A stretch of 64,000 bases of DNA from an uncultured Mycobacteriaceae bacterium (GTDB taxonomy: Bacteria; Actinomycetota; Actinomycetes; Mycobacteriales; Mycobacteriaceae): contig CADEGF010000001.1 of the NCBI GenBank assembly GCA_902826815.1, positions 207,673-271,672 of the forward strand, read 5' to 3'. Of this stretch, positions 13,876 to 33,725 are shown one piece after another (the stretch's first letter is position 1; each line of letters opens with the position of its first letter). A program made the translations under genes and the position numbers. The notes under the pieces are model-generated. The model did no database searches and was not told the DNA's origin. It saw only the letters and a program-made list of their open reading frames with translations.

Positions 13876-15237
13876 TCAGCGGACGGTGAGGTTCGGCACC
13901 TCGCGGATATCGGGCAGTTCCAACAACCGCCAGCATGCGGCGGCCACTTCTTCCGATCGTGCGGCGCCGAGCACCGGAGTGGACAGGCCGACGAACTTCT
14001 CCTCGAGTTGCCCGTCACTCATGGGGTTGTCCGGGGTGCCGAGGTTGTGGGCGACAAGGCGCTCGAGCGTGCGACCGTCCTTGAGTGTCAACATGACTCG
14101 TGCCGAGTCCTTACCCTGCGCGGCGTCGGTGTGCACGTGCACCCGCTCCCGAAGACCGGCCAGCTCCGGGTCGGCCACCCGCTCGTCGGTGAACTGGTCG
14201 AGCAGTGCGGCTCCGTCGGCGAGTGCGACGGCGAGCACGTGGTAGATGCTGAACTTGCCCTGCAGCCCCGTCTGCGGGTCGGTCAGGCCGGTCGTCGTCT
14301 TGACGTAGTCGTGCACGTAGGCGTCCACCGACGCGACGTCCGCAGCGGTCAGGCCGTGCTCGGCGCGCAGTTCGAGAAGTGCCTGCGCGGGCGGATGGGT
14401 GAGCGACCCACATGCGTAGGGCTTGAACCCGTCTCGCGGCAGGTACCAGATGTCGCCGAGACCGTCGACCGCCTTCGTCGGCACCGGGTCGGGCGAAAAT
14501 AGATGCAGAAAGCCGCGATGACCCTCGATGGCTTCTGGGCTGGAGGTGAAGCCGTCGCGGGCGAGGAAGCCCGACAACAGCCCGTCCATCGCGGCCTTGC
14601 CGGGGTGCAGCGACTTGCCCATCGACCCGTAGACCACCTTCATTCCCGCCGCCTGCGTCGCGCCGGTTCCGATCGCGGCGAGCGTCTGCTGCGCGTCGAG
14701 ACCCAGCAACCGCGCGGTTGCCGCGGCAGCACCGATATGCCCGACGGTGCCGGTGACGTGCCAGCCTGCGTCGTAGTGGCCGGGCCCGGCCGCGACGGCG
14801 ACCCGGGTCTGCACCTCGAAGCCCGCGACGAACGCCTCGACGGCGGCCCTGCCCGACACCGGAACCAGTTCGGCGGCGGCGGCGATCGCCGGCCACAGCG
14901 GTGCGCTGCCGTGGATCGTGGTCCGGTCGGGGTTGAAGGTATCGTCGAAATCCAGGATGTGCGCGGCGATTCCGTTCGCGAGCGCGGCATAGCCGACCCC
15001 GGCGCGCTGGCGGGTACCGACGATCGGTGCGGTACCCGTTCCGTCGCCGGCATCCAGTGCGCCGATCCCCGCATGAACGCGTGCGCCCTCGGCCGTTGCG
15101 GACCCCGCGATGGTGCAGCCGAGCCAGTCGACAAGGCACCGGACGGCCTGGTGGACCACATCGGCGGGCAGGTCGTCGATGCTCATCGTGGCCGCGAACT
15201 CGGCCAGCGTCCGGCTTACCGCCTGCTCATCGGCCAC
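13876..15237 (-). CDS. MmgE/PrpD family protein 1
   Basis: A 453-residue member of the MmgE/PrpD family. The family includes 2-methylcitrate dehydratase, cis-aconitate decarboxylase and iminodisuccinate epimerase, all acting on small polycarboxylates without a cofactor. Family blocks seen are AHILDFDDTFNPDRTTIHGS, GWHVTGTVGHIGAAAATARL and GSMGKSLHPGKAAMDGLLSG. It is closer to PrpD protein 3 than to protein 2, since both have the NPxxTTxHGS loop. The GTG start has AAGGGA about 9 bp upstream. It is divergent from PrpD protein 2 across a 59-bp gap filled by a 31-bp palindrome, and it ends 3 bp from the fadE stop. The substrate is unknown. Confidence 0.88.
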   Translation of the reverse strand: MADEQAVSRTLAEFAATMSIDDLPADVVHQAVRCLVDWLGCTIAGSATAEGARVHAGIGALDAGDGTGTAPIVGTRQRAGVGYAALANGIAAHILDFDDTFNPDRTTIHGSAPLWPAIAAAAELVPVSGRAAVEAFVAGFEVQTRVAVAAGPGHYDAGWHVTGTVGHIGAAAATARLLGLDAQQTLAAIGTGATQAAGMKVVYGSMGKSLHPGKAAMDGLLSGFLARDGFTSSPEAIEGHRGFLHLFSPDPVPTKAVDGLGDIWYLPRDGFKPYACGSLTHPPAQALLELRAEHGLTAADVASVDAYVHDYVKTTTGLTDPQTGLQGKFSIYHVLAVALADGAALLDQFTDERVADPELAGLRERVHVHTDAAQGKDSARVMLTLKDGRTLERLVAHNLGTPDNPMSDGQLEEKFVGLSTPVLGAARSEEVAAACWRLLELPDIREVPNLTVR

Positions 15238-15260
15238 CGGTCAATTCCCTTCGGTGTCGT

Positions 15261-15291
15261 CTGTAATACGGAAATAATTTCTGTTATACAG
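15261..15291. promoter_or_regulatory. 31-bp operator palindrome between divergent prpD genes (putative IclR site)
   Basis: The inner core GGAAATAATTTCTG (15270-15283) is flanked by outer arms CTGTA and TACAG. Twelve of 15 positions pair across the centre at 15276. It fills the gap between the two divergent MmgE/PrpD genes. The core recurs at 21918-21931, next to the IclR gene, and at 24487-24500. I infer that this is the binding site of the IclR-family regulator at 22042. Confidence 0.65.
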
Positions 15292-15296
15292 ATTAC

Positions 15297-16676
15297 ATGG
15301 TCACATCGCTGTCGGACTACGACGATCGGACTTCCGCCGAGACGCGCACCCTTCTGGACTTCGTTTCGCGTACGCCCGCCGAAGCGATACCCGCCGACGT
15401 GGTGCACGAGAGCACAAGGTGCCTGCTCGACCACCTCGGTCTGGCAATCGCGGGCGCCGCCGAACCCGCCGCGGGCATCGCCAGGGCTCAATGCCTTCTG
15501 CTCGGCGGTGAACCCCAGGCCAGCGCGCTCGGCACAACAGACCGGCTGCGGATCACCGACGCTGCGCTGGTGAACGGAATTGCCTGTCATGCACTCGATT
15601 TCGACGACACCCATGTGCCAACGATTCTGCATCCGACCACTCCGCTCTATGCGGCGGGCGCCGCGCTGGCCGAGTGGCGAGGTAGCACCGGTATCGAACT
15701 GCTGGCCGCGCACGCGCTCGGCTATGAGCTCGCCGCCCGTGTCAGCAACGCGCTCTATCCCGAGCATTACGATGCGGGCTGGCATATGACCGGCACCACC
15801 GGCGCGCTGGCGTCGGCGACGGTGGCGATCAGGCTGCTCGGCCTCGAGGGCCTGACCGCGACTCACTGCCTGAGCATCGCGGCGACTCAGGCGTCCGGGC
15901 ACCGCGAGCAGTTCGGCACGATGACGAAGCCGTTCCACGCCGGTCACGCCGCGCAGGCCGGCGTGTGGGCAGGCCTGCTCGCCGCCGGCGGGTTCACCGG
16001 CGCGCCTGACCCGTTGCAGGGCCGTCGCGGCATGTTCGCGGTTATGGCCGCAGTAAGCACTCCCGACGACCTGGTAAACGGGCTGGGTGAGCGGTGGCAG
16101 ATCTTCGACAACGGGGTCAAGCCGTACGCGTGCGGCGTAGTGATCCATCCGGCCATCGACGCCGTCCGCGACCTGACGGTACGCAAGGGCTTGACTGCCG
16201 ACCGGATCGAGAGCATCAAGCTGCATGTGCACCCGCTCGTTCGCGAGCTCACCGGAAAGACCGATCCCCGAACGGGTTTGGAGGGTAAGTTCTCGGTGAC
16301 CTATGCCTGCTCGATCGCACTGCTCGAGGGCAGGGCGGCTGAGGAGCAGTTCTCCGACGAGTCGGTACATCGCGGCGACGTCCGGGCACTGATGGCCAAG
16401 ATCGAGGTCATCCCTGACGCAGGCGTTCCGCACACACAGGCGGGCGCGAGCGCGCTCACCGGTGACGGCGAAACGGTTGAGACGTGGGTCGATCACGCGC
16501 GCGGCACCCCAGGCAACCGGTTGACCGATGACGAGTTGCGGGATAAGTTCCACGGGCTCGCAGACAGCGTGATCGGACGCGATCGGGCGGAAAGGCTTGC
16601 AGACGCCGCCTTTTCGCTGAAGACGGGCGGCGATGTCGACGCGATGCTTGAACTCACCACGCCGCAGATGCGCTGA
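15297..16676 (+). CDS. MmgE/PrpD family protein 2
   Basis: A 459-residue MmgE/PrpD protein with the family blocks IACHALDFDDTHVPTILHPT, HYDAGWHMTGTTGALASATV and MTKPFHAGHAAQAGVWAGLL. The FDDTHVP loop and lack of NPxxTT set it apart from the other two copies, so it probably acts on a different substrate or at a different step. The ATG has no Shine-Dalgarno, and TATACA lies 7 bp before it, so the mRNA may be leaderless. The operator palindrome overlaps the promoter. The 3' end overlaps the convergent SDR gene by 23 bp. It could be a dehydratase, decarboxylase or epimerase. Confidence 0.87.
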   Translation: MVTSLSDYDDRTSAETRTLLDFVSRTPAEAIPADVVHESTRCLLDHLGLAIAGAAEPAAGIARAQCLLLGGEPQASALGTTDRLRITDAALVNGIACHALDFDDTHVPTILHPTTPLYAAGAALAEWRGSTGIELLAAHALGYELAARVSNALYPEHYDAGWHMTGTTGALASATVAIRLLGLEGLTATHCLSIAATQASGHREQFGTMTKPFHAGHAAQAGVWAGLLAAGGFTGAPDPLQGRRGMFAVMAAVSTPDDLVNGLGERWQIFDNGVKPYACGVVIHPAIDAVRDLTVRKGLTADRIESIKLHVHPLVRELTGKTDPRTGLEGKFSVTYACSIALLEGRAAEEQFSDESVHRGDVRALMAKIEVIPDAGVPHTQAGASALTGDGETVETWVDHARGTPGNRLTDDELRDKFHGLADSVIGRDRAERLADAAFSLKTGGDVDAMLELTTPQMR

Positions 16677-17361
16677 CGACCTCTGCTCCGTCGCAGTCGA
16701 CGTGCACCACGGTGCCGGTCAGCTCGGCGGCGTCGGCGAAGGCCAGTCGCGCCACCTGAGAGGCGATTTCGGCGCGGCAGCGGTCCAACTCAGAGCCATC
16801 CGAATCGACCCCGGGTGATACGGCGTTCACGGCCACACCCTGGTCGCGCAGTGCGGCCGCAAGAGCAACGGTGAGACCGAGCAAGCCGTGCTTGGCAGCC
16901 GAAAGATGCACCCGCTCGGGGTCACCCGCGAGGGCATTACGTCCGAGAATGTTGACGATGCGGCCCCCAGGCGTCAGGGCGGGCAACGCGTGCCGGACGC
17001 ACCGGAACGCGCCGTCCAGCGTGACGGCGCGGACCTGGTACCAGTCGTCCTCGGTCATCGTCTCGATCCGCTGACGCGGACGGTAGGACGCATTGTTGAC
17101 CAGCACCCGTAGCCGTCCGCGGGCGGCGATATCGTCGAACATGCGCCGCACCGCGGACGGGTCGGTGACGTTCGCCGTCACCGTGAACGCACATCCGCCC
17201 GCTGCCCGGATCGCCGCGACGACCGCGTCGGCATGCTCGGTGTGGGACCTGGTGTTCACCGCCACCGTGAGACCCTCTGCGGCAAGGCCTTCGGCGATCA
17301 CCGCGCCCAGCCCACTGCCTGCCCCAGTGACGAGGGCGATCTCCGGTATGGGATCAGCCAT
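16654..17361 (-). CDS. Short-chain dehydrogenase/reductase-like protein with eroded active site
   Basis: A 235-residue SDR fold. The nucleotide-binding motif TGAGSGLG (residues 12-19) and the VNN strand at 88-90 are intact. The catalytic YxxxK is changed: Lys157 is kept, but the Tyr position is Leu153 (VHLSAAKHG), and the usual ISS serine region reads NILG (137-140). It is probably not a classical oxidoreductase and may be a structural or regulatory partner, or use other chemistry. The ATG at 17361 lies inside the end of PrpD gene 3 (8-bp overlap), so it is translationally coupled as the last gene of the tctBAC-prpD-SDR operon. Confidence 0.8.
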   Translation of the reverse strand: MADPIPEIALVTGAGSGLGAVIAEGLAAEGLTVAVNTRSHTEHADAVVAAIRAAGGCAFTVTANVTDPSAVRRMFDDIAARGRLRVLVNNASYRPRQRIETMTEDDWYQVRAVTLDGAFRCVRHALPALTPGGRIVNILGRNALAGDPERVHLSAAKHGLLGLTVALAAALRDQGVAVNAVSPGVDSDGSELDRCRAEIASQVARLAFADAAELTGTVVHVDCDGAEVVSASAAW

Positions 17362-18709
17362 CGCGCGGCACGGTCTGCGCGAGCAGCTTCGACACATCGT
17401 CGAGCTCGTCGAACCGCCAGCAGGTGGCGAGCAGCCGTTCGGTGCGCTCGGTCCCCAGCACCGGACCGACGAGCTCGCGGAACTTCGCGTCGAGCTCGTC
17501 GTCGCCCAGCGGCGCCGACGGCGTCCCCCGGTTGCCGCGAACCTCGGTCGTCAATGACTGGCCCGAAGCCAACGTGATCTCGACGTCGGCGTCCTGCTTG
17601 CCGAGCGCCGGATCGCTGACCACCTTGACGCGATCGCGCAGGTCGACCACATCCGGACGGGTCAGGATGGCCTTCGCCAACTCGTCAGGCCCGAGCCGGC
17701 CGAAGATGGCTGCCGCAGCCGCGCAGTGGCGCAGGCTGAACTTCGCCTGCAGAGGGGTGGACGGCTGCGGCAGGTCTGTGAAGCGCGCCGCCGGTGCGGA
17801 CACGCGAATATCGATCGACCTGACGTCGTCAGGGGCCACGTCATTGTCGGCCATCAGCGCGATCACGCCGTCGATCATCGGGTGGGTCAGCGAACCGCTC
17901 GGGTAGAGCTTGTAGCCGTTGCTCGTGAGGTTCCAGGTCTCCCCGAGGCCCGCGCTGATCTTCTCGGGTGCCGGTTCGTCGCTCATCACCGCCAGGTAGC
18001 CGAAGTCGCCCTCGAGCGCCTTGGCGCCTGCCGTCAGCCTATGCGCGGCCAGCGTTGCCGCCAGCACACCGTCCATCGCGGCCTTACCGGGGTGCATGCT
18101 CTTGAGGTCGCTGCCCGCCATGATGCGCAGACCTGCGGCCTGGGTCGCGCCCGCGGCGATCGCGTGCTCAACCTCGCTGCGGCCCAAGCCCATCGTGCGC
18201 GCCGCCGCGGCCGCCGCACCGACGTGAGCGGACGTCCCGGTGACGTGCCAGCCGACGTCGTAGTGGGTCTGACCCGCCGCGTGCGCGACGCGCGTCTCCA
18301 CCTCGAACCCGACGGCGAAGCTGGCAAGTGCATCGCGTCCCGTCACCGTCCTGGTGTCGGCGACCGCGAAAATGGCCGGCCACACCGAGCAGCTCCCGTG
18401 CACGGTCGTGCCCGGCGGGTTGTACACGTCGTCGAGGTCAAGGACATGCGAGGCGAACGCGTTGAGGAACGCCGCGAACGGGGGCGAGGCCCGCATCTCT
18501 GCGCCGACTACCGTTGCCGTGCCGCTGCTTTCGCTCGCGGCGACCGCGTCCCTTGCACGGCGGGTGGCGTCGTCCGTCGACCCGCTCACCGACACCCCGA
18601 TGTGGTCGACCAGCGAGCGGCGTGCCGCGTGCAGAACCGGTTCGGGTATCTGCTCGGACCCGTGCTCGGCGACGAACCTGGCGAGAAGTGAGGTCGGACC
18701 TTCAGTCAC
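17354..18709 (-). CDS. MmgE/PrpD family protein 3
   Basis: A 451-residue MmgE/PrpD protein. Family blocks are SHVLDLDDVYNPPGTTVHGS, DVGWHVTGTSAHVGAAAAAA and DLKSMHPGKAAMDGVLAATL. The start codon overlaps the stop of the upstream TctC-type binding protein gene by 4 bp, and its end overlaps the SDR gene by 8 bp. The transporter and this enzyme are therefore expressed together, which suggests that the imported tri- or dicarboxylate is its substrate. It most resembles PrpD protein 1. The reaction could be dehydration, decarboxylation or epimerisation. Confidence 0.88.
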   Translation of the reverse strand: MTEGPTSLLARFVAEHGSEQIPEPVLHAARRSLVDHIGVSVSGSTDDATRRARDAVAASESSGTATVVGAEMRASPPFAAFLNAFASHVLDLDDVYNPPGTTVHGSCSVWPAIFAVADTRTVTGRDALASFAVGFEVETRVAHAAGQTHYDVGWHVTGTSAHVGAAAAAARTMGLGRSEVEHAIAAGATQAAGLRIMAGSDLKSMHPGKAAMDGVLAATLAAHRLTAGAKALEGDFGYLAVMSDEPAPEKISAGLGETWNLTSNGYKLYPSGSLTHPMIDGVIALMADNDVAPDDVRSIDIRVSAPAARFTDLPQPSTPLQAKFSLRHCAAAAAIFGRLGPDELAKAILTRPDVVDLRDRVKVVSDPALGKQDADVEITLASGQSLTTEVRGNRGTPSAPLGDDELDAKFRELVGPVLGTERTERLLATCWRFDELDDVSKLLAQTVPRDG

Positions 18710-19707
18710 TGATCCTTCCTCAGACCGAGTCCCGCGAGCAGATCGCCGACGATCTTGGTCTGCTCTTTAAGGTAGGAGGCGAACTCGTCGCCCTTGAGGT
18801 TCTCGGTCACCAGGCCGCTGTCCTTGGCGAGCTTCTTCCAGTCGTCGGTGTCGACCATTTTCGAGAGGTCGTCCTGAAACTTCTTGACGGCGTCCTCCGG
18901 CATGTCGGGTGCACCCACCACGGCCCGGAACTGCACGGGCAGGTTCGCCGAGTCGATGCCCTGCTCCTCCGTGGTGCTGACGTCGGGGAAGATCTCCAGA
19001 CGCTTGGACCCGATCACCGCAATCACCTTGAGTTGTTTCGCCCGCACCTGTTCCGCGATGTCGGAGGCGCTGCCGAGCATGATATTGGCGTCCCCGCGCA
19101 GAAGGGCGGTGATGCGGTCACCGGTGCTCTCGAAAGACAGGAACTTCCACTTCGCACCGAGGGTGTCCTGCAACACCAGGCGGGTCAGCGCGTCGTTGGC
19201 CGTGCTGGAACCGCCGCTCTGCACCAGCGTGTCGGGGCTCTTCTTGGCTGCGGCGACGAAGTCGGCGAACGTGTTGAACGGCGAGTCCGCACTGGTGACG
19301 ATGACCTGGGGCTCGGTCGCGACAAGCGTGATCGGCGTCAGCATGTCGAGGTTCACCTTGGCGTTCTCGACGGTCATCGGCGTTGCGATCCAGGTGGGGG
19401 TAATTTGGGCGATTAGACCCGGGTTGCCCTTGTGGTCCACCATGTACGCCATCGCCCCGATCGAGTCACCTGCCGGCACATTGCGGACCGGCCAGTTCTT
19501 GTCGATGATCTTGTTCTCGAACATCACCTTGATCATCTGACGGGTGAACACGTCGCTTCCGCCGCCGACGGCGTTGTGGGTGACAACCTCCACCGACTCG
19601 GAGCCGCTTCCTCCTCCGCCTCCTGGGCCGGAACTGCCGCAGGCGGCCGCGGCGGTGAGTGCCACCGCCGCGATCACGACCGTGAGGACTCGGTTGATAC
19701 GGATCAT
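18706..19707 (-). CDS. Tripartite tricarboxylate transporter substrate-binding lipoprotein (TctC-type)
   Basis: A 333-residue extracytoplasmic solute receptor of the TTT family, which delivers carboxylates to a TctAB permease. The N terminus is a lipoprotein signal with lipid-attachment Cys23 (VALTAAAACGSSG), followed by a Gly/Ser linker. Family segments include VVTHNAVGGGSDVFTRQMIK, PAGDSIGAMAYMVDHKGNPG and QSGGSSTANDALTRLV. The ATG at 19707 has an excellent AGGAAGGA site. It follows tctA by 47 bp. A second, diverged TTT system lies at 30.7-33.7 kb. The ligand is unknown. Confidence 0.92.
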   Translation of the reverse strand: MIRINRVLTVVIAAVALTAAAACGSSGPGGGGGSGSESVEVVTHNAVGGGSDVFTRQMIKVMFENKIIDKNWPVRNVPAGDSIGAMAYMVDHKGNPGLIAQITPTWIATPMTVENAKVNLDMLTPITLVATEPQVIVTSADSPFNTFADFVAAAKKSPDTLVQSGGSSTANDALTRLVLQDTLGAKWKFLSFESTGDRITALLRGDANIMLGSASDIAEQVRAKQLKVIAVIGSKRLEIFPDVSTTEEQGIDSANLPVQFRAVVGAPDMPEDAVKKFQDDLSKMVDTDDWKKLAKDSGLVTENLKGDEFASYLKEQTKIVGDLLAGLGLRKDQ

Positions 19708-19754
19708 GGTTCGATTCCTTCCTGGTGAGGGTTGGGCTTGATGACGTTGGTGGC

Positions 19755-21266
19755 TCACACCTCGGCGTCGACCAGTTGCTCGCGAACCTTGCGCGTCCTG
19801 CCCAGCGTGAGGACCAACAGCAGTGCAACCGCCAGGCCGATGAGGACCGCGGAGATCGGCCGCTGCAGATAGATGAGCGGGCTGTTGTCCGAGAGCAGCA
19901 GCGACTGGCGAATCGAGTTCTCGGCGATCGGGCCGAGCACGAACGCCAGCACGAGCGGTGCCGCTGGGATGTCGAGCTTGCGCATCACGTATCCGAGAAG
20001 CCCGAACACGGCGAGCAGGCCGACATCGAAGATCGAGAAGTTCACGCTGTAGACGCCGATCACCGCGATCAGCAGGATCCCCGGATAAAGCACCTTGTAC
20101 GGCGTGTTCAACAGCTTCGCGAAGAATGGCACCATCGGCAGGTTCATCACGAGCAGGGCGATATTGCCCAGGTACATGCTGGCGATGATCGGCCAGACCA
20201 CGTCGGGGTGCTCGTTGAACAGGAGCGGGCCGGGGTTGAGGCCGTAGAGCACCAGCGCGCCGAGCAGTATGGCGCCGGTGCCCGAGCCTGGGATGCCCAG
20301 CGTCAACAGCGGGATCATCGCCCCGCCGGTCTCGGAGTTGTTGGCGGCCTCGGGGGCGGCCACCCCCTTGATCTCGCCCTTTCCGAAGTCCTCGGGGTTC
20401 TTGGAGGTGCGCTTGGCGATGATGTAGGACACGAAGGACGCGACCGTCGAGCCTGCGCCGGGCAAGATGCCGATCAGGAATCCCACGATGCCGCCCTGCA
20501 GCATGGCGGGTGTCGACCTTCTGATGTCCTTACGAGAGGGAAGCAACTCGCGAAGCTTTTTGGGCACGGTGAAGAGCTGCTTCTCGGTCTTCTCCTCGAC
20601 GTTGACCAGCACCTCGCCGATGGCGAAGATGCCGATGCTCACGATGATGAAGTCGATTCCCCCGGCAAGCCCGATCTGGCCTCCGGTGAACCGCGGTTGG
20701 CCGGAGAACAGGTCGGTGCCGATGGTGGACAGGAACAGACCGATGAACATGGAGATGAATCCCTTGAGCATCGAGTCACCGGCCAGCATGATGACCAGCA
20801 GAAGCGCGAAGATCATCAGCGCCGAGTACTCCGGCGGACCGAAGCTGACCGCAACGTCGGCCATCACCGGCGCCAGGAAGGTCAGGCCGATCACGCCGAT
20901 GGTGCCTGCGACGAATGACGCGATGGCCGCGATCCCCAGCGCCACGCCGCCGCGGCCCTGCTTCGCCATCTCATAGCCGTCGAGGCAAGTGACCACCGAT
21001 GCCGACTCACCAGGGATGTTGAGCAGGATCGACGTCGTCGAGCCACCGTATTTGGCGCCGTAATAGATGCCGGCCATCATGATCAGGCCGGTGGCCGGGT
21101 CGAAGCCCGTCGCCAGCGGGAGCAGGATCGAGATAGTCGCCGGCGGTCCCAGCCCCGGCAGGATACCGACGAGGGTGCCGAGCAGGCAGCCGACGATCAG
21201 CCACAACAGGTTCGTCGGGGAGATCGCGGTCTCGAACCCGTGCAGTAGGCCGTCGATCGCGTTCAT
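19755..21266 (-). CDS. Tripartite tricarboxylate transporter large permease (TctA-type)
   Basis: A 503-residue membrane protein with about 11-12 hydrophobic segments. The TctA signatures are GCLLGTLVGILPGLGPPATI near residue 30 and TLGIPGSGTGAILLGALVLY in the second half, repeats that face each other in this family. It forms the proton- or sodium-coupled channel fed by the TctC lipoprotein. It lies 13 bp downstream of tctB, in the order B-A-C. Transcription probably starts at the IclR-type operator upstream of tctB. Confidence 0.94.
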   Translation of the reverse strand: MNAIDGLLHGFETAISPTNLLWLIVGCLLGTLVGILPGLGPPATISILLPLATGFDPATGLIMMAGIYYGAKYGGSTTSILLNIPGESASVVTCLDGYEMAKQGRGGVALGIAAIASFVAGTIGVIGLTFLAPVMADVAVSFGPPEYSALMIFALLLVIMLAGDSMLKGFISMFIGLFLSTIGTDLFSGQPRFTGGQIGLAGGIDFIIVSIGIFAIGEVLVNVEEKTEKQLFTVPKKLRELLPSRKDIRRSTPAMLQGGIVGFLIGILPGAGSTVASFVSYIIAKRTSKNPEDFGKGEIKGVAAPEAANNSETGGAMIPLLTLGIPGSGTGAILLGALVLYGLNPGPLLFNEHPDVVWPIIASMYLGNIALLVMNLPMVPFFAKLLNTPYKVLYPGILLIAVIGVYSVNFSIFDVGLLAVFGLLGYVMRKLDIPAAPLVLAFVLGPIAENSIRQSLLLSDNSPLIYLQRPISAVLIGLAVALLLVLTLGRTRKVREQLVDAEV

Positions 21267-21279
21267 CGGCGAAATCCAT

Positions 21280-21885
21280 TCACTGCCACAGAGTTCCTCC
21301 CGGGAGTTGCAATTCGAGCAGGACGACGAACAGGAGATACATAGCCGGCGTCAGCAGCAGCAGCGCGACGATCGTGCCGACCGACCGGACACGTTCGACC
21401 ACCACGATCACGAGCAGGGCGAGCACCTCGCCGGCGATCAGGAATCCGAGTGGTTCGAGCAGCACCGCGAAGACCACCAGAGTGAGCCACACGAGCATGG
21501 CCCGGGCGATGTGCCGGGGCTGCAGCGAAAGCAGGGGCACGTCACCGCTGCGCGCCTTGGGCCCCCAGAGCCAGACCGCTACCAGGGCGAGGCCCAGGCC
21601 GATCAGGCAGATCGTCAGCAGCACAGGAAAGTATCCAGGGCCGGGCTCGTTGTTAGCACCCAGGAACGCCAGTTCGGTGCGGCTGCGGTACAGCAGCCAG
21701 GCCGCCAGCCCGGCGATCACCAGGCCGAGGATTATGTGGACCAGACGGGTGATCCGCGCATCGCGGGCATGGTCTTCGGAGGTCTGCTCGCCCGCTTGGT
21801 CTGGCGGTTCAGCTGAGCCAACCGGCTGAGCCGGGATGGTCTTGTCGGCCGCCGCTTCGGCCTTCGGCTGTACCTCTTGTTCCAT
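21280..21885 (-). CDS. Tripartite tricarboxylate transporter small permease (TctB-type)
   Basis: A 201-residue protein with four predicted membrane helices after a charged, Ala/Pro-rich cytoplasmic N terminus (about 45 residues). The segment LGANNEPGPGYFPVLLTICL is the typical TctB PGxFP motif. First gene of the tctBAC-prpD-SDR operon, with GAGGTC before the ATG. The 156-bp region shared with the divergent iclR gene contains the operator at 21918. Confidence 0.88.
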   Translation of the reverse strand: MEQEVQPKAEAAADKTIPAQPVGSAEPPDQAGEQTSEDHARDARITRLVHIILGLVIAGLAAWLLYRSRTELAFLGANNEPGPGYFPVLLTICLIGLGLALVAVWLWGPKARSGDVPLLSLQPRHIARAMLVWLTLVVFAVLLEPLGFLIAGEVLALLVIVVVERVRSVGTIVALLLLTPAMYLLFVVLLELQLPGGTLWQ

Positions 21886-21917
21886 TCAGACCTCTTACCG
21901 AATCATGTCTTGAGTAT

Positions 21918-21931
21918 GGAAATCATTTCTG
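21918..21931. promoter_or_regulatory. Putative IclR operator between tctB and iclR
   Basis: GGAAATCATTTCTG, with perfect GAAAT/ATTTC arms, lies 33 bp upstream of the tctB ATG and 111 bp upstream of the iclR ATG. It differs at a single base from the core at 15270-15283. Its position between the regulator and the divergent transport operon is the classical IclR arrangement. Confidence 0.65.
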
Positions 21932-22041
21932 GCTTTAGGAAAAGCTAGGTCTGTTGCGGCCGCGTGTCAAGCGTCACCTTGGGCCGGCAAAGAGTGTGGC
22001 GAGTTGGCAGACACCTGGACAGATGACGGTAGGCTTCTTCT

Positions 22042-22848
22042 ATGCAGAAGTCACGACCGGAGAGCGAAACTGGACCCGCGTATCCCATAGCGTCGGTCAA
22101 CAATGCGCTTCTGCTGCTTCTTCTGTTCCGTGAACAGCCCAGGGTGCGACTGACGGACGCCTGCAAATACCTGGGCGTTGCCCACTCGACGGCACACCGA
22201 CTGCTCGCGATGCTCGCCCACCACGGATTCGTTCAGCAGGAGCCGGTCACCCGCGCCTACATCGCAGGCCCGGCGCTGGTCGAGGTGGGCCTTGCCGTCG
22301 TCGGTTCCCTGAATGTCCGCGAGCAGGCCAGGCCCATGATGGAGGAACTCGCCGCCGAAACCGGCGAGACAGTTCACCTCGGAGTTCTCGAGGGCGATCA
22401 GGTCCGGTATGTGGATGCGGTGGAGTCCGAACGCGCGCTTCGGGTGGTGGCCCGAACCGGAACGCTGGTGCCCGCGCACTGCACGTCGTTGGGCAAGGCC
22501 CTGCTGGCCCAGCTGACCGATCAACAGGTGGCCGCGCTGTACCCGACGTCGGCGGAGCCGTTCGTCGCCCGGACCGACAAATCGATCACCACTCAGGCGA
22601 AGCTGATGAAGGAGGTGGCGAGGGCCAGGGCCCGCGGGTACGCAGTGAACGCGGGCGAGACCGAGGACGATGTGGGTTCGGTCTCCGTCGCGTTCCGCGA
22701 CTTCGCGGGCAGGTCCGCGTCCATCGCCGTTGCGGCGCCGACGAGTCGCCTTACGTCGTCACGGATTTCACTCATCGGCGACCTGATGATCCAGACCATC
22801 TCCCGCGCACCGGAATCGCCGGTGATCGCTCACGTGCCCTCGGACTGA
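22042..22848 (+). CDS. IclR-family transcriptional regulator
   Basis: A 268-residue regulator. An N-terminal winged helix (about residues 17-80) includes the recognition segment LGVAHSTAHRLLAMLAHHGF. The C-terminal IclR effector domain includes ETGETVHLGVLEGDQVRYVD, VPAHCTSLGKALLAQL and ARGYAVNAGETEDDVGSVSV. It is divergent from the tctBAC-prpD-SDR operon and adjoins an operator-like palindrome found at three promoters of the block, so it is the probable local regulator. The effector is likely the imported acid or its product. Its end overlaps the convergent MFS gene by 19 bp. Confidence 0.92.
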   Translation: MQKSRPESETGPAYPIASVNNALLLLLLFREQPRVRLTDACKYLGVAHSTAHRLLAMLAHHGFVQQEPVTRAYIAGPALVEVGLAVVGSLNVREQARPMMEELAAETGETVHLGVLEGDQVRYVDAVESERALRVVARTGTLVPAHCTSLGKALLAQLTDQQVAALYPTSAEPFVARTDKSITTQAKLMKEVARARARGYAVNAGETEDDVGSVSVAFRDFAGRSASIAVAAPTSRLTSSRISLIGDLMIQTISRAPESPVIAHVPSD

Positions 22849-24035
22849 CGATCTCTGCGCGCGTTGAGCACACCTGCCAGCGCGGTCCCGAACATGACGA
22901 CAGCCAAGAGCGCGAAGGCCGTCTCCACTCCCCACCACTGCGACGCGACGCCTGCCGCGGCGAGGATGAAGGTCTGACCGACGCGGTTCGTCGCCAGCCT
23001 CAGTCCGAGCGCAGACCCGCGGCTGGTGTCGTCGACCAGGTCGACGACCCAGTCCATCGTGGTGGTCTGCGACAGCCCTAGCGAGAATCCGAGCACCGAC
23101 ATCGCCAGCATCATCGGTGTCAAGTTATGGCTCAGCGCGACGACGAGCAGGCACGTCGCGGCAACGGCAGTGGCGACCACGGTCAGGTTCAGCGTCGGGA
23201 TCCTTCGCACGAACCACGGGGTGGTCGCCCGCGCCAGAAGGGCACCGCTGGAGCTGATGCCAAGGAGGATGCCCACCTGCGAAGGGGTCAGGCCGACGGA
23301 CGCGCCGAGCAGAGGCAGATAGACAAGTAGTAGGTCGATGCCGCTCTTGGCGGAGAAGCTGGTCATCAGCGCGGCGGGCATGCCCTTCCTGCGCAGCAGT
23401 CGCCATATCCGCTCGGGCTTGCCGGTTCTCACCGTGGACACCTGCATCCTGGTGCGCATCGCGATGGCCGCTGCGGGCAGTCCTCCGACGGCGACCCAGG
23501 CAGCGACCTGCAGCGCTGCCGACGTCGACTCGAGGCTCGGGGAGTCCGTATGGCCGATGATCACGCCGCCGAGCACCGGCCCGACGATCTGGCCGAGCGC
23601 TGAAATCGTTGTGAGAGTGCCGAATCGGCTGATGCGCGCCAGCGAGCTCTGCGCCTGGGCCATGATGCTCTGGCCGCCGATAGTGCCGGTCATGTGCCCG
23701 ATTCCGAGCAGCGTCGTCGCGATCGCAAGGGCCGGGATCGCCTTGGCCACCATGAGCGCGAAACCCGACGCGGCCGTCAGCGCGAGGCCGACGCTCAGCA
23801 GGATCCCCGGGTGATGCCGTTCGGTCCATCGACCGAAGCTGACGGCGAGCAGCATCGGGGGGACCGCGAAACACGCCGACGTGAGGCCAAGGGTGGTGCC
23901 GTCGGCGCCGAGTGCCAGGAGTCGGTACGTCGACACCGGCCGCGCCGACGTGACCGCCACCTGCAGCAGAAAGATCGTCGCGGTGGTGCCGATGAGCCAC
24001 AGCGGCGGAAGGGAACGTTCCTTGAGGTTCACCAC
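22830..24035 (-). CDS. Major facilitator superfamily transporter
   Basis: A 401-residue membrane protein with 12 predicted helices in two halves. The loop between helices 2 and 3 reads VSFGRWTERHHPGILLSVGL, a variant of the MFS GxxxDRxGRR motif, and a central charged loop (TRMQVSTVRTGKPERIWRLL) separates the halves. It follows the VOC gene by 16 bp, so the two are cotranscribed from the promoter with the operator at 24487. It may export an intermediate or import a related substrate. The start is one of two consecutive GTG codons. The substrate is unknown. Confidence 0.87.
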   Translation of the reverse strand: MVNLKERSLPPLWLIGTTATIFLLQVAVTSARPVSTYRLLALGADGTTLGLTSACFAVPPMLLAVSFGRWTERHHPGILLSVGLALTAASGFALMVAKAIPALAIATTLLGIGHMTGTIGGQSIMAQAQSSLARISRFGTLTTISALGQIVGPVLGGVIIGHTDSPSLESTSAALQVAAWVAVGGLPAAAIAMRTRMQVSTVRTGKPERIWRLLRRKGMPAALMTSFSAKSGIDLLLVYLPLLGASVGLTPSQVGILLGISSSGALLARATTPWFVRRIPTLNLTVVATAVAATCLLVVALSHNLTPMMLAMSVLGFSLGLSQTTTMDWVVDLVDDTSRGSALGLRLATNRVGQTFILAAAGVASQWWGVETAFALLAVVMFGTALAGVLNARRDRQSEGT

Positions 24036-24051
24036 CGCTTCGCCGCGGCGG

Positions 24052-24444
24052 TCAGTGCTTCCAGCCGCGCTCCGGCGTGGCCACGTCGACCTCTACGCCA
24101 TCGGGGTCGCGGAACTTGAAGAACCTGGGCGGGTCGGCCTGCTCGGCGCCGTAGACCTCGACGCCGCGTTCCTTCAGCGCAGTCACCACCGCGCCGGTGT
24201 CCTCGATCGCCACCCCGATGTGGTTGGGGCCCATCGCGCCATATGTCCATTCTGAACGCTCGATCTCCGGATTGGGTTGCAGCAGCGAGTAGTTGACCTC
24301 GCCGTCACTGAGGTCCAGTGCCTTACCAGGGTAGTGGCCGGGGGTGCGGACGTCGCCGAGGCGCTTGAAGCCCAGCACGTTCTCATAGAACTCGGCGGTC
24401 GTTTCGAGGTCCTGGACCACGATTCCGAGGTGTCGGATGCGCAC
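24052..24444 (-). CDS. VOC-superfamily (glyoxalase/dioxygenase-fold) protein
   Basis: A 130-residue vicinal-oxygen-chelate protein made of two beta-alpha-beta-beta-beta modules. Likely metal ligands are His4 region (RIRHLGIVV), His in GPNHIGVAIED and Glu in DPDGVEVDVA, the pattern of glyoxalase I, methylmalonyl-CoA epimerase and fosfomycin-resistance relatives. The GTG at 24444 has GGAGA 8 bp upstream. A longer frame from 24495 would overlap the operator. Paired with the MFS gene and divergent from the molybdenum hydroxylase operon. The reaction is not predictable. Confidence 0.82.
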   Translation of the reverse strand: MRIRHLGIVVQDLETTAEFYENVLGFKRLGDVRTPGHYPGKALDLSDGEVNYSLLQPNPEIERSEWTYGAMGPNHIGVAIEDTGAVVTALKERGVEVYGAEQADPPRFFKFRDPDGVEVDVATPERGWKH

Positions 24445-24486
24445 TACTGTCTCCTCTTCAACTGAAGCTGATATCTTCCGTACTGT

Positions 24487-24500
24487 AGAAAGCATTTCTG
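24487..24500. promoter_or_regulatory. Putative IclR operator between VOC-MFS and molybdenum-hydroxylase operons
   Basis: AGAAAGCATTTCTG keeps the GAAA-n2-ATTTCTG core seen at 15270 and 21918. It is 43 bp upstream of the VOC GTG and 148 bp upstream of the divergent iron-sulphur subunit gene. One arm has a mismatch (GAAAG versus ATTTC), so it is the weakest of the three copies. Confidence 0.55.
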
Positions 24501-24647
24501 CAAATCAGACTCTACTTCTGCAGGATGGCGCCCGTCAATGGACGGCCACACCGGCGGTCGCTCGTCGGCGGAACTCGTGTATTCCGCCACCCGAGTTGCC
24601 GCATTGCGACATTGCAGGGTCGGCAGCCGGCTTTCTAGGGTCGGGCT

Positions 24648-25130
24648 GTGACGCACGGGCAGCCTGTCGAGCAGACATTCACCCTCGTGGTGAACGGTTC
24701 CACGGTCGAGGTCACGGCCGCCCCCGAGACGTCCCTGTTGAACGTGCTGCGCAACGACCTCGGGCTGATGGGGCCGCGGTTCGGATGTGGGCTCGCACAG
24801 TGCGGCGCCTGTTTTGTGCGCCTCGACGGCGCGGTGGTGCCCGCCTGCGACACGCCGATGTGGTCCGCGCACGGACGCACTGTTGTCACCGTCGAAGGCC
24901 TTGCGCAGGGCGATCGGCTACACCCCGTGCAGGAGGCCGTATTGGCGATGCAGGCGGCTCAGTGCGGTTTCTGCATCTCGGGAATCCTGGTGTCTGCGGC
25001 TACGCTGCTCGACTCCGAACCGCGGCCGAGCGAGTCTGCCGTGCTCGATGCGCTAGACCGCAACCTGTGTCGATGCGGCGTGCAACGGCGGATTGTCGGG
25101 GCCGTCCTGAAGGCCGGTGAGGTCTCGTGA
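24648..25130 (+). CDS. Molybdenum hydroxylase, [2Fe-2S] subunit (isoquinoline/nicotinate dehydrogenase type)
   Basis: A 160-residue small subunit of the xanthine-oxidase family. The plant-type [2Fe-2S] cluster is bound by Cys47, Cys52, Cys55 and Cys67 (GCGLAQCGACFVRLDG). The second cluster uses Cys106, Cys109, Cys141 and Cys143 (QCGFCISG and NLCRCG). It passes electrons from the molybdenum subunit encoded next, with which it overlaps by 4 bp. Two-subunit enzymes without an FAD subunit (IorAB, NicAB) usually donate to cytochromes or the respiratory chain. GTG start. First gene of a plus-strand operon that continues at least to the isochorismatase-type hydrolase. Confidence 0.92.
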   Translation: MTHGQPVEQTFTLVVNGSTVEVTAAPETSLLNVLRNDLGLMGPRFGCGLAQCGACFVRLDGAVVPACDTPMWSAHGRTVVTVEGLAQGDRLHPVQEAVLAMQAAQCGFCISGILVSAATLLDSEPRPSESAVLDALDRNLCRCGVQRRIVGAVLKAGEVS

Positions 25131-27280
25131 TTCTTGATCGCCATCACAGCGTGGTGGGCGAGCTGCCCAAAAATCTGGCGGCCAATCCTGTTCTCTCTCA
25201 ATGGGTCAGGGTCCGTGATGACGGCGGGATCGATGTGCAGGTGGGCAAAGTCGAGCTCGGTCAGGGCATACTCACCGCGCTGGCTCAGGTGGCCGCCGAC
25301 GAACTCGCGGTCCAGCTCGACCAAATCCGCATGGTGGCGGCCGATACCGAGCGGGGCCCGGACGAGGGCATCACCTCCGGCAGCCTCTCGATCTCGCAGT
25401 CCGGCCCTGCTCTCGCGGTCGCTTGCGCCAACGTGCGCATGCTCTTTGTGCAGGCAGCCGCTCGTCGGTGGCAGGTCGACGAGGACGATGTCGTCGTCGT
25501 GCTCGGCGTGATCCGCACACACTGCGGATCACATGAGGCTTCATACGCGGAGCTCGCGACCGAGGTCGACCTCGAGGTGGCACCGGACCCGGCGGCAGCG
25601 ACCCGACCCGTGGACAGCGCGAGCGTTGTGGGCGACAGCGTGCCGAGGCGCGACCTCCCGGACAAGATCAGGGGTCGGCCACGCTACCTCTCCGACATGC
25701 GGCTGCCAGGCCTGATGTTCGGCGGCATCGTCCGCCCCCCGACCCGCGGCGCGCGACTTGAACACATCGCCGAGAACTGCTTGAACGGACTCCCCGTCCA
25801 CATAGTGCGGGACGGGTCGTTCGTGGGAGTGGTGGGTGAGAACGAGGCGGCTCTGATGGCCGCGGTGGAGAAGCTGCGATCCGCCTGCAGATGGAAGGAG
25901 GCAGCGCTCCTGCCCGACGAGGACAACCTGGTCGCCTTCCTGAAATCGGGTCCGCACGAGACGATTTCGGTGGAATCCGGCCGGCTGCCGGAACCGACCC
26001 CGGCAGATCTGCACCGGCGGGCCACCTATAGTCGGCCGTTCCTCGCACATGCGTCCATGGCTCCGAGCTGCGCCGTGGCGCAGTGGGACGACAGCGAGCA
26101 CATTTCGGTATGGAGCCACAGCCAGGGAATCTTCCGTCTCCGGGCAGCGATCGCTGACACGCTCGGGCTGGCGCCAAGGTCGGTCACCGTCCGGCACGTC
26201 GAGAACGCGGGCTGCTACGGCCACAACGCGGCCGACGACGCGGCCTTCGACGCCGTCCTGCTCGCCCGCTCTGTACCCGGGCGTCCCGTGCAGGTGCAGT
26301 GGGGACGTCGCGACGAGCTGACCTGGGCGCCGTTCGGGTCCGCGATGGTCGCAGACGTGGCGGCGACGATCGGCCAGGGCGGTCGAGTGACAGCGTGGAG
26401 CTATGACGTGTGGAGCCAGGGCCACACCTCGCGGCCGGGGTACGCGGGCGCTGCTGGCCTGCTGGCGGCCACCCACTTCGCCGAGCCTGCGACCTATCCG
26501 GGCGCCATCGATCCGCGTCAGCCTGCGGGAGGGACGACCCGTAACGCCCGCCCGATCTACGAGCTGGGCGGCAGGCGCATCGTCGGACATCGGCTGCTGG
26601 AGTCGCCGATCCGGTCGTCGGCGATGCGCTCGCTCGGGGCCTTCCTCAATGTCTTCGCCATCGAGTCGTTCATGGACGAGCTCGCCGCTGCGGTGGGCGC
26701 CGACCCACTCGACTTCCGCCTGGCTCATTTGAGCGATGCCCGCGCCCGCGCGGTACTTCAGCGCGCCGCGACGGCGGCCGGCTGGGGCTCGCCGGTGGCC
26801 GAGGGAATCGGGCGTGGAATCGGGCTGGCCCGTTACAAGGGTGCCGGCGCGTACTGCGCCGTCATCGCCGAGGTCGAGGCCGAGCATGACATCCGGCTGC
26901 GTCGTCTCACGGTCGCAGTCGACGTGGGCCGGGTCGTGAATCCAGACGGAGTGCGCAACCAGATTGAAGGCGGCGCCACCCAAGCCGCCAGCTGGACGAC
27001 CAAGGAGCGGGTCCGCTTCGACCGGCGACAGGTGACCAGCAACGACTGGGAGTCTTACCCGATCCTGCGCTTCAGCGAGGCGCCGAAGATCGACGTCGAG
27101 GTGATCGATCGGCCCGAGGAACCGTCGGTGGGCTCCGGTGAGGCCGCCCAGGGGCCGACGGCAGGTGCGATCGGCAACGCCGTGGCGGCCGCCGTCGGAG
27201 TGCGAGTGAGGGATCTTCCGCTGACGACCGACGCCGTGGTCGCAGCGATCGAAAGTGACGAGGAAAGGACAGCCCGATGA
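25127..27280 (+). CDS. Molybdenum hydroxylase, molybdopterin-binding large subunit
   Basis: A 717-residue large subunit of the IorB/NicB type. Visible family segments are VQVGKVELGQGILTALAQ (about residues 38-55), GPDEGITSGSLSISQSGPA, AHASMAPSCAVAQW and the C-terminal SVGSGEAAQGPTAGAIGNAV. Glu672 there is in the position of the catalytic base of the family. It probably hydroxylates an aromatic N-heterocycle or aldehyde using water. The C-terminal cytochrome c domains of Pseudomonas NicB are absent. The start overlaps the small-subunit stop by 4 bp, and the stop overlaps the next gene by 4 bp. I saw no maturation gene (XdhC type) nearby, so maturation must be encoded elsewhere. Confidence 0.9.
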   Translation: MILDRHHSVVGELPKNLAANPVLSQWVRVRDDGGIDVQVGKVELGQGILTALAQVAADELAVQLDQIRMVAADTERGPDEGITSGSLSISQSGPALAVACANVRMLFVQAAARRWQVDEDDVVVVLGVIRTHCGSHEASYAELATEVDLEVAPDPAAATRPVDSASVVGDSVPRRDLPDKIRGRPRYLSDMRLPGLMFGGIVRPPTRGARLEHIAENCLNGLPVHIVRDGSFVGVVGENEAALMAAVEKLRSACRWKEAALLPDEDNLVAFLKSGPHETISVESGRLPEPTPADLHRRATYSRPFLAHASMAPSCAVAQWDDSEHISVWSHSQGIFRLRAAIADTLGLAPRSVTVRHVENAGCYGHNAADDAAFDAVLLARSVPGRPVQVQWGRRDELTWAPFGSAMVADVAATIGQGGRVTAWSYDVWSQGHTSRPGYAGAAGLLAATHFAEPATYPGAIDPRQPAGGTTRNARPIYELGGRRIVGHRLLESPIRSSAMRSLGAFLNVFAIESFMDELAAAVGADPLDFRLAHLSDARARAVLQRAATAAGWGSPVAEGIGRGIGLARYKGAGAYCAVIAEVEAEHDIRLRRLTVAVDVGRVVNPDGVRNQIEGGATQAASWTTKERVRFDRRQVTSNDWESYPILRFSEAPKIDVEVIDRPEEPSVGSGEAAQGPTAGAIGNAVAAAVGVRVRDLPLTTDAVVAAIESDEERTAR

Positions 27281-28008
27281 AAAGCACGATCGAACTGCAT
27301 GACCGCGAGGAGTACAAGCGCTCGATGCGCGAGCTGCTCACGATCGACCCCACAAAGACCGTCGCCCTCACGGTTGACATGCAGCGCGACTACCTTGACC
27401 CGTCGATCGCGACGGCTCCAGTTCGCGACGAAGTCGCGAAGAAGGTGGTGGCCGATACCGCGGCGATGCTCGACCTGTGCAGGGAGTCGGGCATCCCGGT
27501 TGTGCACTGCTACGTGAGCCGTCGCCCCGAAGAGGCGGCGCTTGGCGGCCACAATGCGCCCTACATCGCGGCGGGCCAGCGCGCCGGGCTCTCCCAGAAC
27601 GTCATCGCGGCGGCGCGCACCCGGGTCGACCGCGTGGCCGGCTCGGGCAGCGAACAGGTCATGCCTGCCCTCGTCGGAGAGGGCGACGTGATGATGGGTA
27701 ACAAGCGTGAGATGGACAGTTTCCACCTGACCGACCTCGAGATGATCTTGCGCCGCTACTTCAAGCCCGAGGTCGTGCTCATCGCAGGCATCAACACCGA
27801 TACGTGCGTGTACGCAACGACATTCGGTGCTTCGGCCCGCGGCTACCGTCCGGTGCTGGTCGAGGAGTGCGTTGCGAGCATGCGCGGCGCTGATCACCAC
27901 CAGATGGCGCTCGAACTCATCGCGGGCAGTCTGGCCTGGGTGTTGACCATGGACGAGCTGCGGGGCAAGGTCGCGGCCGCGCCGGTGGTCGCCTCCGCGA
28001 CGGGGTAA
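27277..28008 (+). CDS. Isochorismatase-like cysteine hydrolase
   Basis: A 243-residue hydrolase. The Asp-Lys-Cys triad of the family is present: Asp34 (ALTVDMQRDYL), Lys143 (GNKREMDSF) and Cys177 (GINTDTCVYATTF). Relatives include N-carbamoylsarcosine amidase, maleamate amidohydrolase (NicF) and biuret hydrolase, all of which cleave small amides. Fused by an ATGA overlap to the molybdenum hydroxylase large subunit, it may release ammonia from a ring-opened heterocycle. A 40-residue N-terminal extension precedes the core. The exact substrate is not inferable. Confidence 0.9.
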   Translation: MKSTIELHDREEYKRSMRELLTIDPTKTVALTVDMQRDYLDPSIATAPVRDEVAKKVVADTAAMLDLCRESGIPVVHCYVSRRPEEAALGGHNAPYIAAGQRAGLSQNVIAAARTRVDRVAGSGSEQVMPALVGEGDVMMGNKREMDSFHLTDLEMILRRYFKPEVVLIAGINTDTCVYATTFGASARGYRPVLVEECVASMRGADHHQMALELIAGSLAWVLTMDELRGKVAAAPVVASATG

Positions 28009-28099
28009 GGGCGATTGACGCGTGATGTGACTGTCAGACGGCCAGATTGACGGGATGGGCCAGTGCCGGGTCGCGCCGTACTCAACAGACTGGGGAGCC

Positions 28100-28453
28100 A
28101 TGAGCCACATCGAGTTTCGTGAAGAGGACGTCGAGAATCTGGTCGCAGGCCACTACTCCACCGGACGGGGGCAGGTGCTCCGCAGCGACACGATCGAGCT
28201 GACGAAGATCGCGTACAAGCAGGGCTTCGGAGCCGATACCCACCAGCACCCAGAGGAGCAGGTTCTCTACGTGCTCGAGGGGTGCCTGCGATTCACCTGC
28301 GGCGACAACACCTACGACGTGCGACCGGGCGAGGGAAGTTTCCACGCCTCGAACATTCCGCACTCGGTGGTGGCCATCGAGGACACGGTGGCGTTGTCGT
28401 TCAAAAATCAGGTGGCGCCGAACTATGAGGCCACCGGCCGCCTCGGCGGCTGA
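28100..28453 (+). CDS. Cupin-domain protein 1
   Basis: A 117-residue single-domain cupin. Motif 1 is GFGADTHQHPEEQVLYVLEG, with metal ligands His48, His50 and Glu53/54. Motif 2 is PGEGSFHASNIPHSVVA, with His88. The ATG at 28100 has GGGGAG just upstream. It lies 91 bp after the hydrolase gene and 2 bp before the CocE-type gene. It is paralogous to the cupin at 30199, and the two flank the CocE gene. Possible roles are isomerase, dioxygenase or small-molecule sensor in the same pathway. Confidence 0.87.
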   Translation: MSHIEFREEDVENLVAGHYSTGRGQVLRSDTIELTKIAYKQGFGADTHQHPEEQVLYVLEGCLRFTCGDNTYDVRPGEGSFHASNIPHSVVAIEDTVALSFKNQVAPNYEATGRLGG

Positions 28454-28455
28454 GC

Positions 28456-30195: not shown

Positions 30196-30198
30196 CGC

Positions 30199-30534
30199 AT
30201 GCCATTCATCGATCTGGACGAGGTCAAGCCGGAGGTCGTCACCCCGAAGCACTCCACTGCATTCGGTCCCCTGGTGACCGGTGAGGCGATCGAGGTGGGC
30301 AGGCTCCGTTACAAGGCCGGCGAAGGTGCACAGCGCCACGAGCATCCACAGGAGCAGATCATCGTCGTGCTCCACGGCCGGGTGCGCATCCAGCTCGGTG
30401 ACGACATCGCGGAGCTGGGGCCCGGCTCCGGCTTTCATGCGCCGCCGTGGGTGCCGCACCAGATGTGGGTCCTGGAGGACGCAGAGGTGATCAGCTGCAA
30501 GTCGGTCGTAGACGGAGCCGGACACCGGATCTAG
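30199..30534 (+). CDS. Cupin-domain protein 2
   Basis: A 111-residue cupin. The metal-binding motifs are GEGAQRHEHPQEQIIVVLHG (His47, His49, Gln53) and PGSGFHAPPWVPHQMWVLED (His87). It starts 3 bp after the CocE-type hydrolase, with AAGGAG before the ATG. It is similar to cupin 1 in length and motif layout, suggesting an old duplication. It closes the unit before a 157-bp gap that leads into the second tricarboxylate transporter operon. Function unknown. Confidence 0.86.
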   Translation: MPFIDLDEVKPEVVTPKHSTAFGPLVTGEAIEVGRLRYKAGEGAQRHEHPQEQIIVVLHGRVRIQLGDDIAELGPGSGFHAPPWVPHQMWVLEDAEVISCKSVVDGAGHRI

Positions 30535-30691
30535 TTGTGCCGCCTGACGGATTCCGGAAGGAGCTCGCGATTACTTCACGGAACACGCCACTAAAAGCCG
30601 GACGCCAAGAGGCTTGACTCGATAGCGGAGCACTGTAACCGCCGTCACGTTTTCGGCCCGTCAAGAGAACTGAGCTACGAGGAGATCGCGA

Positions 30692-31654: not shown

Positions 31655-31656
31655 GC

Positions 31657-33243: not shown

Positions 33244-33719
33244 GCGCGCCCACCCGCCCACGGGGCCCCCTCGTCAGCATCGACCTCCTGGCGTCAGTGA
33301 CGCTGTTCCTGATCGCCGCGGTGTTGCTTTCGCAGACAGGAACCGACACACGCGACTGGGTGATGCCACGTTCGCTGTGCTACCTGCTCATCGGCGTGGG
33401 TCTGATACTTCTGGTCAAGGGACTGGTGCGGCCGGGCGACAAGGTCCCGCTGGTCCCCGCCGTGGCGCGGCGAAAGGGCTTGGACACCGCGTTCTTCATG
33501 GCGGTCGCCGTGGTGTATGTGCTGGCGATCCCGACCTTGGGGTTCTGGATCTCCAGTGCGGTCGCCCTGTTCGTGCTGTCTCTGACGTTGGCTGAAACAC
33601 GGGACCTGCGTATCGTGCTCCAGTCAGCGGCAACGGCGGTCGGCGTCTCCGCCGGTGCATACCTGCTGATGCAGTACGTCTTCTATGTGCCGCTTCCCAC
33701 TGGTTCGATGTTCGGCTGA
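33240..33719 (+). CDS. Tripartite tricarboxylate transporter small permease 2 (TctB-type)
   Basis: A 159-residue protein with four predicted membrane helices (near residues 10-30, 40-60, 80-115 and 125-150). The segment TRDWVMPRSLCYLLIGVGLI aligns with the PGxFP region of TctB proteins, but with MPR in place of PGY. Last gene of the C-A-B operon. It ends 6 bp from the convergent Rv0216-like gene, which marks the right boundary of the accessory block. Confidence 0.82.
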   Translation: MSAPTRPRGPLVSIDLLASVTLFLIAAVLLSQTGTDTRDWVMPRSLCYLLIGVGLILLVKGLVRPGDKVPLVPAVARRKGLDTAFFMAVAVVYVLAIPTLGFWISSAVALFVLSLTLAETRDLRIVLQSAATAVGVSAGAYLLMQYVFYVPLPTGSMFG

Positions 33720-33725
33720 CAGCGG

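Follow-up and report, generated by a model that had tools for sequence, protein, structure and literature searches.

Does a short motif that recurs at three divergent promoters mark the targets of a neighbouring IclR-family regulator, and how far does the control by this regulator extend? The question is raised by a stretch of 64,000 nucleotides from an uncultured Mycobacteriaceae bacterium (assembly GCA_902826815.1, contig CADEGF010000001.1, positions 207,673 to 271,672; hereafter the window), in which an iclR gene is surrounded by genes for a tripartite tricarboxylate transporter (TctABC), three PrpD-like enzymes, an SDR oxidoreductase, a VOC protein, and an MFS transporter. A preliminary description of the window had joined these genes and an adjacent molybdenum (Mo) hydroxylase operon into one IclR regulon; its reading holds for the core of the regulon and extends too far on the Mo-hydroxylase side. 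In all likelihood, the IclR protein would bind three operators and repress four transcription units, namely prpD1, prpD2, tctBAC-prpD3-SDR, and VOC-MFS. The system constitutes ordinary gene regulation, with a single IclR protein very probably governing a small cluster for carboxylate uptake and breakdown, a reading to which the comparison with relatives lends good support.

A 33-bp operator and its conservation

Exact copies of the core GAAANNATTTCTG are located on the plus strand at 15271-15283, 21919-21931, and 24488-24500. The preliminary description had found the core at all three places, with coordinates that begin one base early, and had correctly noted a one-base difference between the first two copies and a 31-bp palindrome at 15261-15291, in which 12 of 15 pairs were counted as complementary. 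Its statement that all three cores lie in divergent intergenic gaps likewise holds (gene starts at 15237/15297, 21885/22042, and 24444/24648), with the VOC start set by us at GTG 24444 rather than at ATG 24495, which would place the third site inside the gene. The GTG codon is favoured because the stretch between the two codons is poorly conserved and varies in length among relatives.

Equal frequency of the core at random positions, raised in the preliminary description as a possible objection, was not found. With up to two mismatches, the window contains 15 matches (palindromic sites being scored on both strands) versus 3.8 expected, a count reached in none of 100 shuffles; in the whole host genome (6,871,345 bases in 141 contigs), the only exact cores are the three inside these 9.2 kb of the window. 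Among 297 genus genomes (host included), 94 have at least one exact match, and no genome but the host has three exact cores within 10 kb among the matches listed. This clustering is post hoc, the core having been chosen from the same region; independent support comes from the conservation seen in relatives.

Alignments of the gaps with those of relatives reveal that conservation extends past the core to a unit of 33 bp, TCYG-N5-YRGA-N7-TCYG-N5-YRGA. The unit consists of two palindromes with centres 20 bp apart, the core being the inner box pair between them. Over 22 sites, self-complementarity is highest at the centre and 10 bases to either side of it (0.58 at -10, 0.78 at 0, and 0.81 at +10; the next value is 0.50 at +1). 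The arms of the right-hand palindrome pair completely in all five prpD and all nine VOC sites; the weakest self-complementarity is found in the tctB site (0.50, 0.69, and 0.47 at the same offsets). With up to two mismatches, the extended pattern matches only three sites in the host genome, all in this cluster, and three further places match at three mismatches. Matrix scores in the window separate the operators (42-51) from the fourth-best match, which starts at 22036 and scores 8.5.

Two broader readings of the motif were tried and rejected. The string GAAANNATTTC occurs at 24 places in the host genome, 21 of which miss the extended pattern even with three mismatches, and a fourth window site at 8865-8879 lies at a gene end and has poor symmetry. 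On host contig C10, another IclR-family match is preceded, at a distance of 65 bp, by an operator-like site with three mismatches (111732-111764).

Orthologues of iclR, 83-94% identical, are present in five loci of named genomes: Mycolicibacterium stellerae, M. agri, Mycobacterium sp. ACS1612, and two metagenome assemblies. At E <= 1e-80, the gene is found in 7 of 396 sampled genus genomes, host included; since three of these duplicate the DNA of named loci, the distinct clusters total nine, including the window. Gene order is kept wherever the contig reaches, with the exception of L070, which is devoid of prpD2, and L072, which is rearranged. The VOC site is present in all nine loci (0-2 mismatches to the extended pattern), the tctB site in all eight with adjacent tctB and iclR, and the prpD site in all five with divergent prpD1 and prpD2 (0-2 mismatches). 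The prpD gap is not covered in L026 and L027, whose contigs end earlier, and the arrangement is missing in L070 and L072; no prpD site was found in L070, where the divergent pair is lost. Scanning related mycobacteria with a matrix trained on the three window sites alone, as the preliminary description had suggested, placed the matching gaps at the top of the eight other loci for 19 of 19 sites (eight VOC, seven tctB, and four prpD). All seven iclR-bearing genomes have pattern matches at two mismatches or fewer; a reversed control pattern also yields some matches in genus genomes. The cluster with its three 33-bp sites very probably represents a real, conserved IclR regulon with a well-defined operator, to which the regulator is predicted to bind.

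Promoters at the operators and the predicted repression

The candidate regulator belongs to the IclR family according to Pfam (HTH_IclR PF09339, 50.7 bits with a cut-off of 22; IclR_C PF01614, 136.9 bits with a cut-off of 24), and its matches in the PDB include IclR, TtgV, AllR-type, KdgR, and Pca regulators. Promoter-like elements abut two of the three operators (Table 1). At tctB, TTGACA-17-TANNNT is present in 8/8 loci and ends 0-2 bp before the operator; at VOC, TTGAC and TANAGT are separated by 17 or 18 bp in 9/9 loci, and the final base of the -10 element is the first base of the operator. A promoter test of this kind was positive at 3 of 20,000 random positions in other mycobacterial loci, and the strict promoter test gave 0/92 at 46 GC-rich pattern sites read on both strands.

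This geometry at tctB and VOC suggests repression: with the operator beginning where the -10 element ends, a bound IclR would cover the transcription start and prevent initiation. The right outer box of operator 1 contains a -10-like TATACA (15285-15290) of prpD2. The spacing of the palindrome centres, about two helical turns, would suit two dimers (a tetramer). Activation from the same sites, or activation at some promoters combined with repression at others, would have a parallel in family members that activate (e.g., PcaU). In addition, two dimerization modes have been raised for the family in PMC8222616. Such a role is nevertheless improbable here, since the position of the operator at the two promoters is that of a repressor.

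In the favoured scheme of repression by IclR, the signal that releases the protein from DNA is probably a di- or tricarboxylate taken up through TctABC, or a product of it. Transcription of iclR itself may be autorepressed through a single box at its probably leaderless start. TANNNT occupies -12 to -7 of the start in 9/9 loci, and the lone palindromic box TCTT-N5-CAGA, part of which is coding, is likewise found in 9/9; it is a candidate autoregulatory half-operator. In L072, the arms of this box are constant and the spacer is altered. The operator pattern, the promoter-like geometry, and the recurrence of both in relatives are observed; the operon limits, IclR binding, repression, and the ligand class are inferred.

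TctA, TctB, and TctC are encoded together and score 555.4, 60.8, and 89.9 bits, respectively, all above their cut-offs. The three PrpD-like proteins contain the superfamily domains PF03972 and PF19305; the preliminary assignment as PrpD is therefore valid at the level of the MmgE/PrpD superfamily and not for 2-methylcitrate dehydratase (NF042438), against which the proteins reach 38.5, 41.5, and 40.1 bits versus a cut-off of 950. Together, TctABC and the PrpD-like, SDR, VOC, and MFS proteins likely form a di- or tricarboxylate catabolic route, and the search for the substrate of the cluster is narrowed to what TctABC imports.

Table 1. Coordinates of the cluster, its operators, and its candidate promoters in the window
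Feature	Coordinates	Strand	Remarks
prpD1, MmgE/PrpD superfamily	13876..15237	-	Pfam; best solved-structure match IDS-epimerase
Operator 1, 33 bp	15260..15292		Between divergent prpD1 and prpD2; 0 mismatches to extended pattern
prpD2, MmgE/PrpD superfamily	15297..16676	+	Pfam; best solved-structure match Bacillus subtilis IRG1
SDR oxidoreductase	16654..17397	-	Pfam
prpD3, MmgE/PrpD superfamily	17354..18709	-	Pfam; best solved-structure match IDS-epimerase
tctB-tctA-tctC, tripartite tricarboxylate transporter	18706..21885	-	TctC 18706-19758, TctA 19755-21266, TctB 21280-21885
Operator 2, 33 bp	21908..21940		Between tctB and iclR; 2 mismatches, most degenerate of the three
tctB candidate promoter	21942..21970	-	TTGACA (21970-21965), 17 bp, TAGCTT (21947-21942); abuts operator 2
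iclR start region, probably leaderless	22030..22048	+	TAGGCT at -12 to -7 of ATG, then TCTT-N5-CAGA (22036-22048)
iclR, IclR-family regulator, 268 aa	22042..22848	+	Pfam; orthologues
MFS transporter	22830..24035	-	Pfam
VOC (glyoxalase-like) protein	24052..24444	-	Pfam
Operator 3, 33 bp	24477..24509		Upstream of VOC-MFS; 0 mismatches
VOC candidate promoter	24509..24538	-	TTGACG (24538-24533), 18 bp, TAGAGT (24514-24509)
Inserted module, probably outside the regulon	24515..33721	+	Fer2, Mo subunit, isochorismatase-like, cupin, S15 hydrolase, second TctC-TctA-TctB

The Mo-hydroxylase module

Beyond operator 3, the homology to M. stellerae ends at 24514 and restarts at 33722; for M. agri, the corresponding positions are 24540 and 33724. 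The 9.2 kb in between hold the Mo-hydroxylase module, genes of which were found beside VOC in none of the eight relatives within the 2.1-8.4 kb readable past the site. Mycobacterium sp. ACS1612 and G366 have different DNA between VOC and maoC. Elsewhere in the 396 genus genomes, the Mo subunit has matches of at most 54% identity (E <= 1e-150), and the best match in 249 genomes of the order is 64% identical; at the two best Mo loci among these (64% and 55%), nothing beyond the Fer2 and Mo subunits matched in the 16 kb covered. Base composition gives no foreign mark (66.4% vs 66.5% G+C). Arrival of the module by insertion is the simpler explanation compared with loss in relatives, the two being not strictly separable.

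The location of operator 3 in the divergent gap preceding the Fer2 gene, the second Tct transporter of the module, and the break of the M. stellerae homology just past the operator would agree with control of the Mo-hydroxylase operon by IclR from operator 3, captured when the module was inserted. This extension of the regulon appears unlikely. All nine loci contain site 3, eight of them with no module alongside, and the module has its own candidate promoter for a leaderless start downstream of the operator (TTGCAG at 24612-24617, 18 bp, and TAGGGT at 24636-24641, before GTG 24648). Operator 3 lies 139-171 bp upstream of that start and is thus too distant for simple blocking. The single unit of the preliminary description is retained as one operator type at three promoters by iclR, matched at the gaps of eight other loci and encountered with a sister IclR elsewhere; inclusion of the Mo-hydroxylase operon is not supported. 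The regulon without this operon sets a likely unit, carboxylate uptake together with MmgE/PrpD enzymes, apart from a separately arrived neighbour.

Sister regulators and known IclR-family systems

Outside the cluster, at least 96 distinct pattern sites occur among the matches listed, after removal of four sites of the cluster's orthologues. Half of them (50/96) are AT-rich, defined as at most 48% GC by a cut-off chosen after the table had been seen, and 38 of these 50 represent one conserved locus (a BLAST cluster), that is, a single independent case. In the two of these loci whose adjacent genes were checked with Pfam, the site is located upstream of Rieske ring-hydroxylating dioxygenase genes; the operon, found in other mycobacteria, encodes Rieske alpha and beta subunits, an SDR protein, and a class II aldolase (Pfam content of L201, L123, and L209 only). 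In flanks of up to 10 kb, some of them shorter on one side at a contig start or end, an IclR gene lies 3.6-5.4 kb from the operator in 13/13 dioxygenase loci examined out of the 38 (L209-L217 and L223-L226). The sister protein, assigned by Pfam to the IclR family in L209, is 46-50% identical to the IclR of the window (nine compared), and both have in common the stretch STAHRLLAML of the helix-turn-helix (HTH) domain, which in this fold would be the recognition helix. The 38 dioxygenase sites show the three complementarity peaks as well (0.79 at -10, 0.68 at 0, and 0.81 at +10), and in 33 of them TTGAC begins 26-29 bp ahead of the operator. The operon resembles the cluster in the 33-bp operator architecture and in its regulator, and differs in having the regulator gene at its far end. 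It may also be akin to phthalate-type operons.

Among the remaining loci, strong sites of the same type occur near class II aldolase genes in L218, L219, and L220 (site near 10017), and none of the three has an IclR gene in the surrounding 10 kb; the site of L218 also has LigB-type and Rieske dioxygenase genes nearby. The two genes beside the L157 site matched no Pfam family.

Several observations weigh against the proposed regulon or the generality of its operator. An IclR match within 2 kb accompanies only 3 of the 96 listed sites, contrary to a simple neighbour rule, and none was found in flanks of up to 10 kb at the five examined of the 12 other AT-rich sites. The strict promoter test was negative at the dioxygenase loci (0/38). 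At least one pattern match is present in 143 of the 396 genus genomes, including the host and orthologue bearers, and genomes lacking this IclR have matches too. Within the cluster itself, 6/7 relatives deviate from the extended pattern by 3-4 mismatches at tctB, L072 retains the VOC operator only, and the exact 13-base core is retained in only 5 of the 19 relatives' sites; the conserved feature is the box pattern of the 33-bp site. The absence of IclR genes at the five non-dioxygenase sites, and the fact that TCTG-N5-CAGA palindromes are by themselves not IclR-specific, could indicate that a regulator of another family (e.g., TetR or GntR) reads the sites, iclR being a coincidental neighbour. 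This is very unlikely: no Pfam regulator family was detected among the other nine proteins scanned (13876-24444), and two kinds of loci couple the operator with IclR proteins having a common HTH stretch.

The proposed regulation by IclR amounts to a concrete regulon that can be tested, and the 33-bp operator code it supplies for a set of mycobacterial IclR proteins offers a route to further catabolic operons under sister regulators. A more speculative and rather doubtful idea is that a mycobacterial IclR lineage uses the four-box operator in two registers, with two dimers on the palindromes 20 bp apart or one on the inner GGAAA-TTTCY; a ligand would switch between these modes, and the code would be common to regulators of unrelated catabolic operons.

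None of the open-licence papers listed was recognised as dealing with this regulon. The best NCBIfam match of the IclR protein of the window is BhcR (NF045644), with 157.7 bits, far under the 350-bit cut-off of that equivalog; for the PcaR/PcaU/PobR subfamily (TIGR02431), the protein reaches 129 bits versus a cut-off of 284.75. According to PMC8222616, tandem palindromes with centres 18-22 nt apart are the predicted sites of many, though not all, members of the IclR family; the 20 bp between the peaks at -10 and +10 found here fall within this range. The tandem and three-box IclR-family sites of that paper, in which PcaU, PobR, and HmgR are named, have in common with the present operator the alternating direction of the boxes, the palindrome spacing of about two turns, and the multi-box layout, and differ from its four boxes in number. 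Compared by eye with the group 1 consensus GKTYCRYW3-4RYGRAMC of the same source, the half-site TCYG-N5-YRGA often has T at the position of the consensus C; the outer palindromes fit most group 1 core positions and the inner one fits E. coli IclR, neither the group 1 nor the group 2 consensus being complete. E. coli IclR recognises TGGAAATNATTTCCA (PMC8222616, Table 1), to which the inner GGAAATNATTTCTG of operators 1 and 2 is nearly equal. In contrast to that operator, two extra flanking boxes are present here, resulting in a 33-bp site of overlapping palindromes, and the target genes are different.

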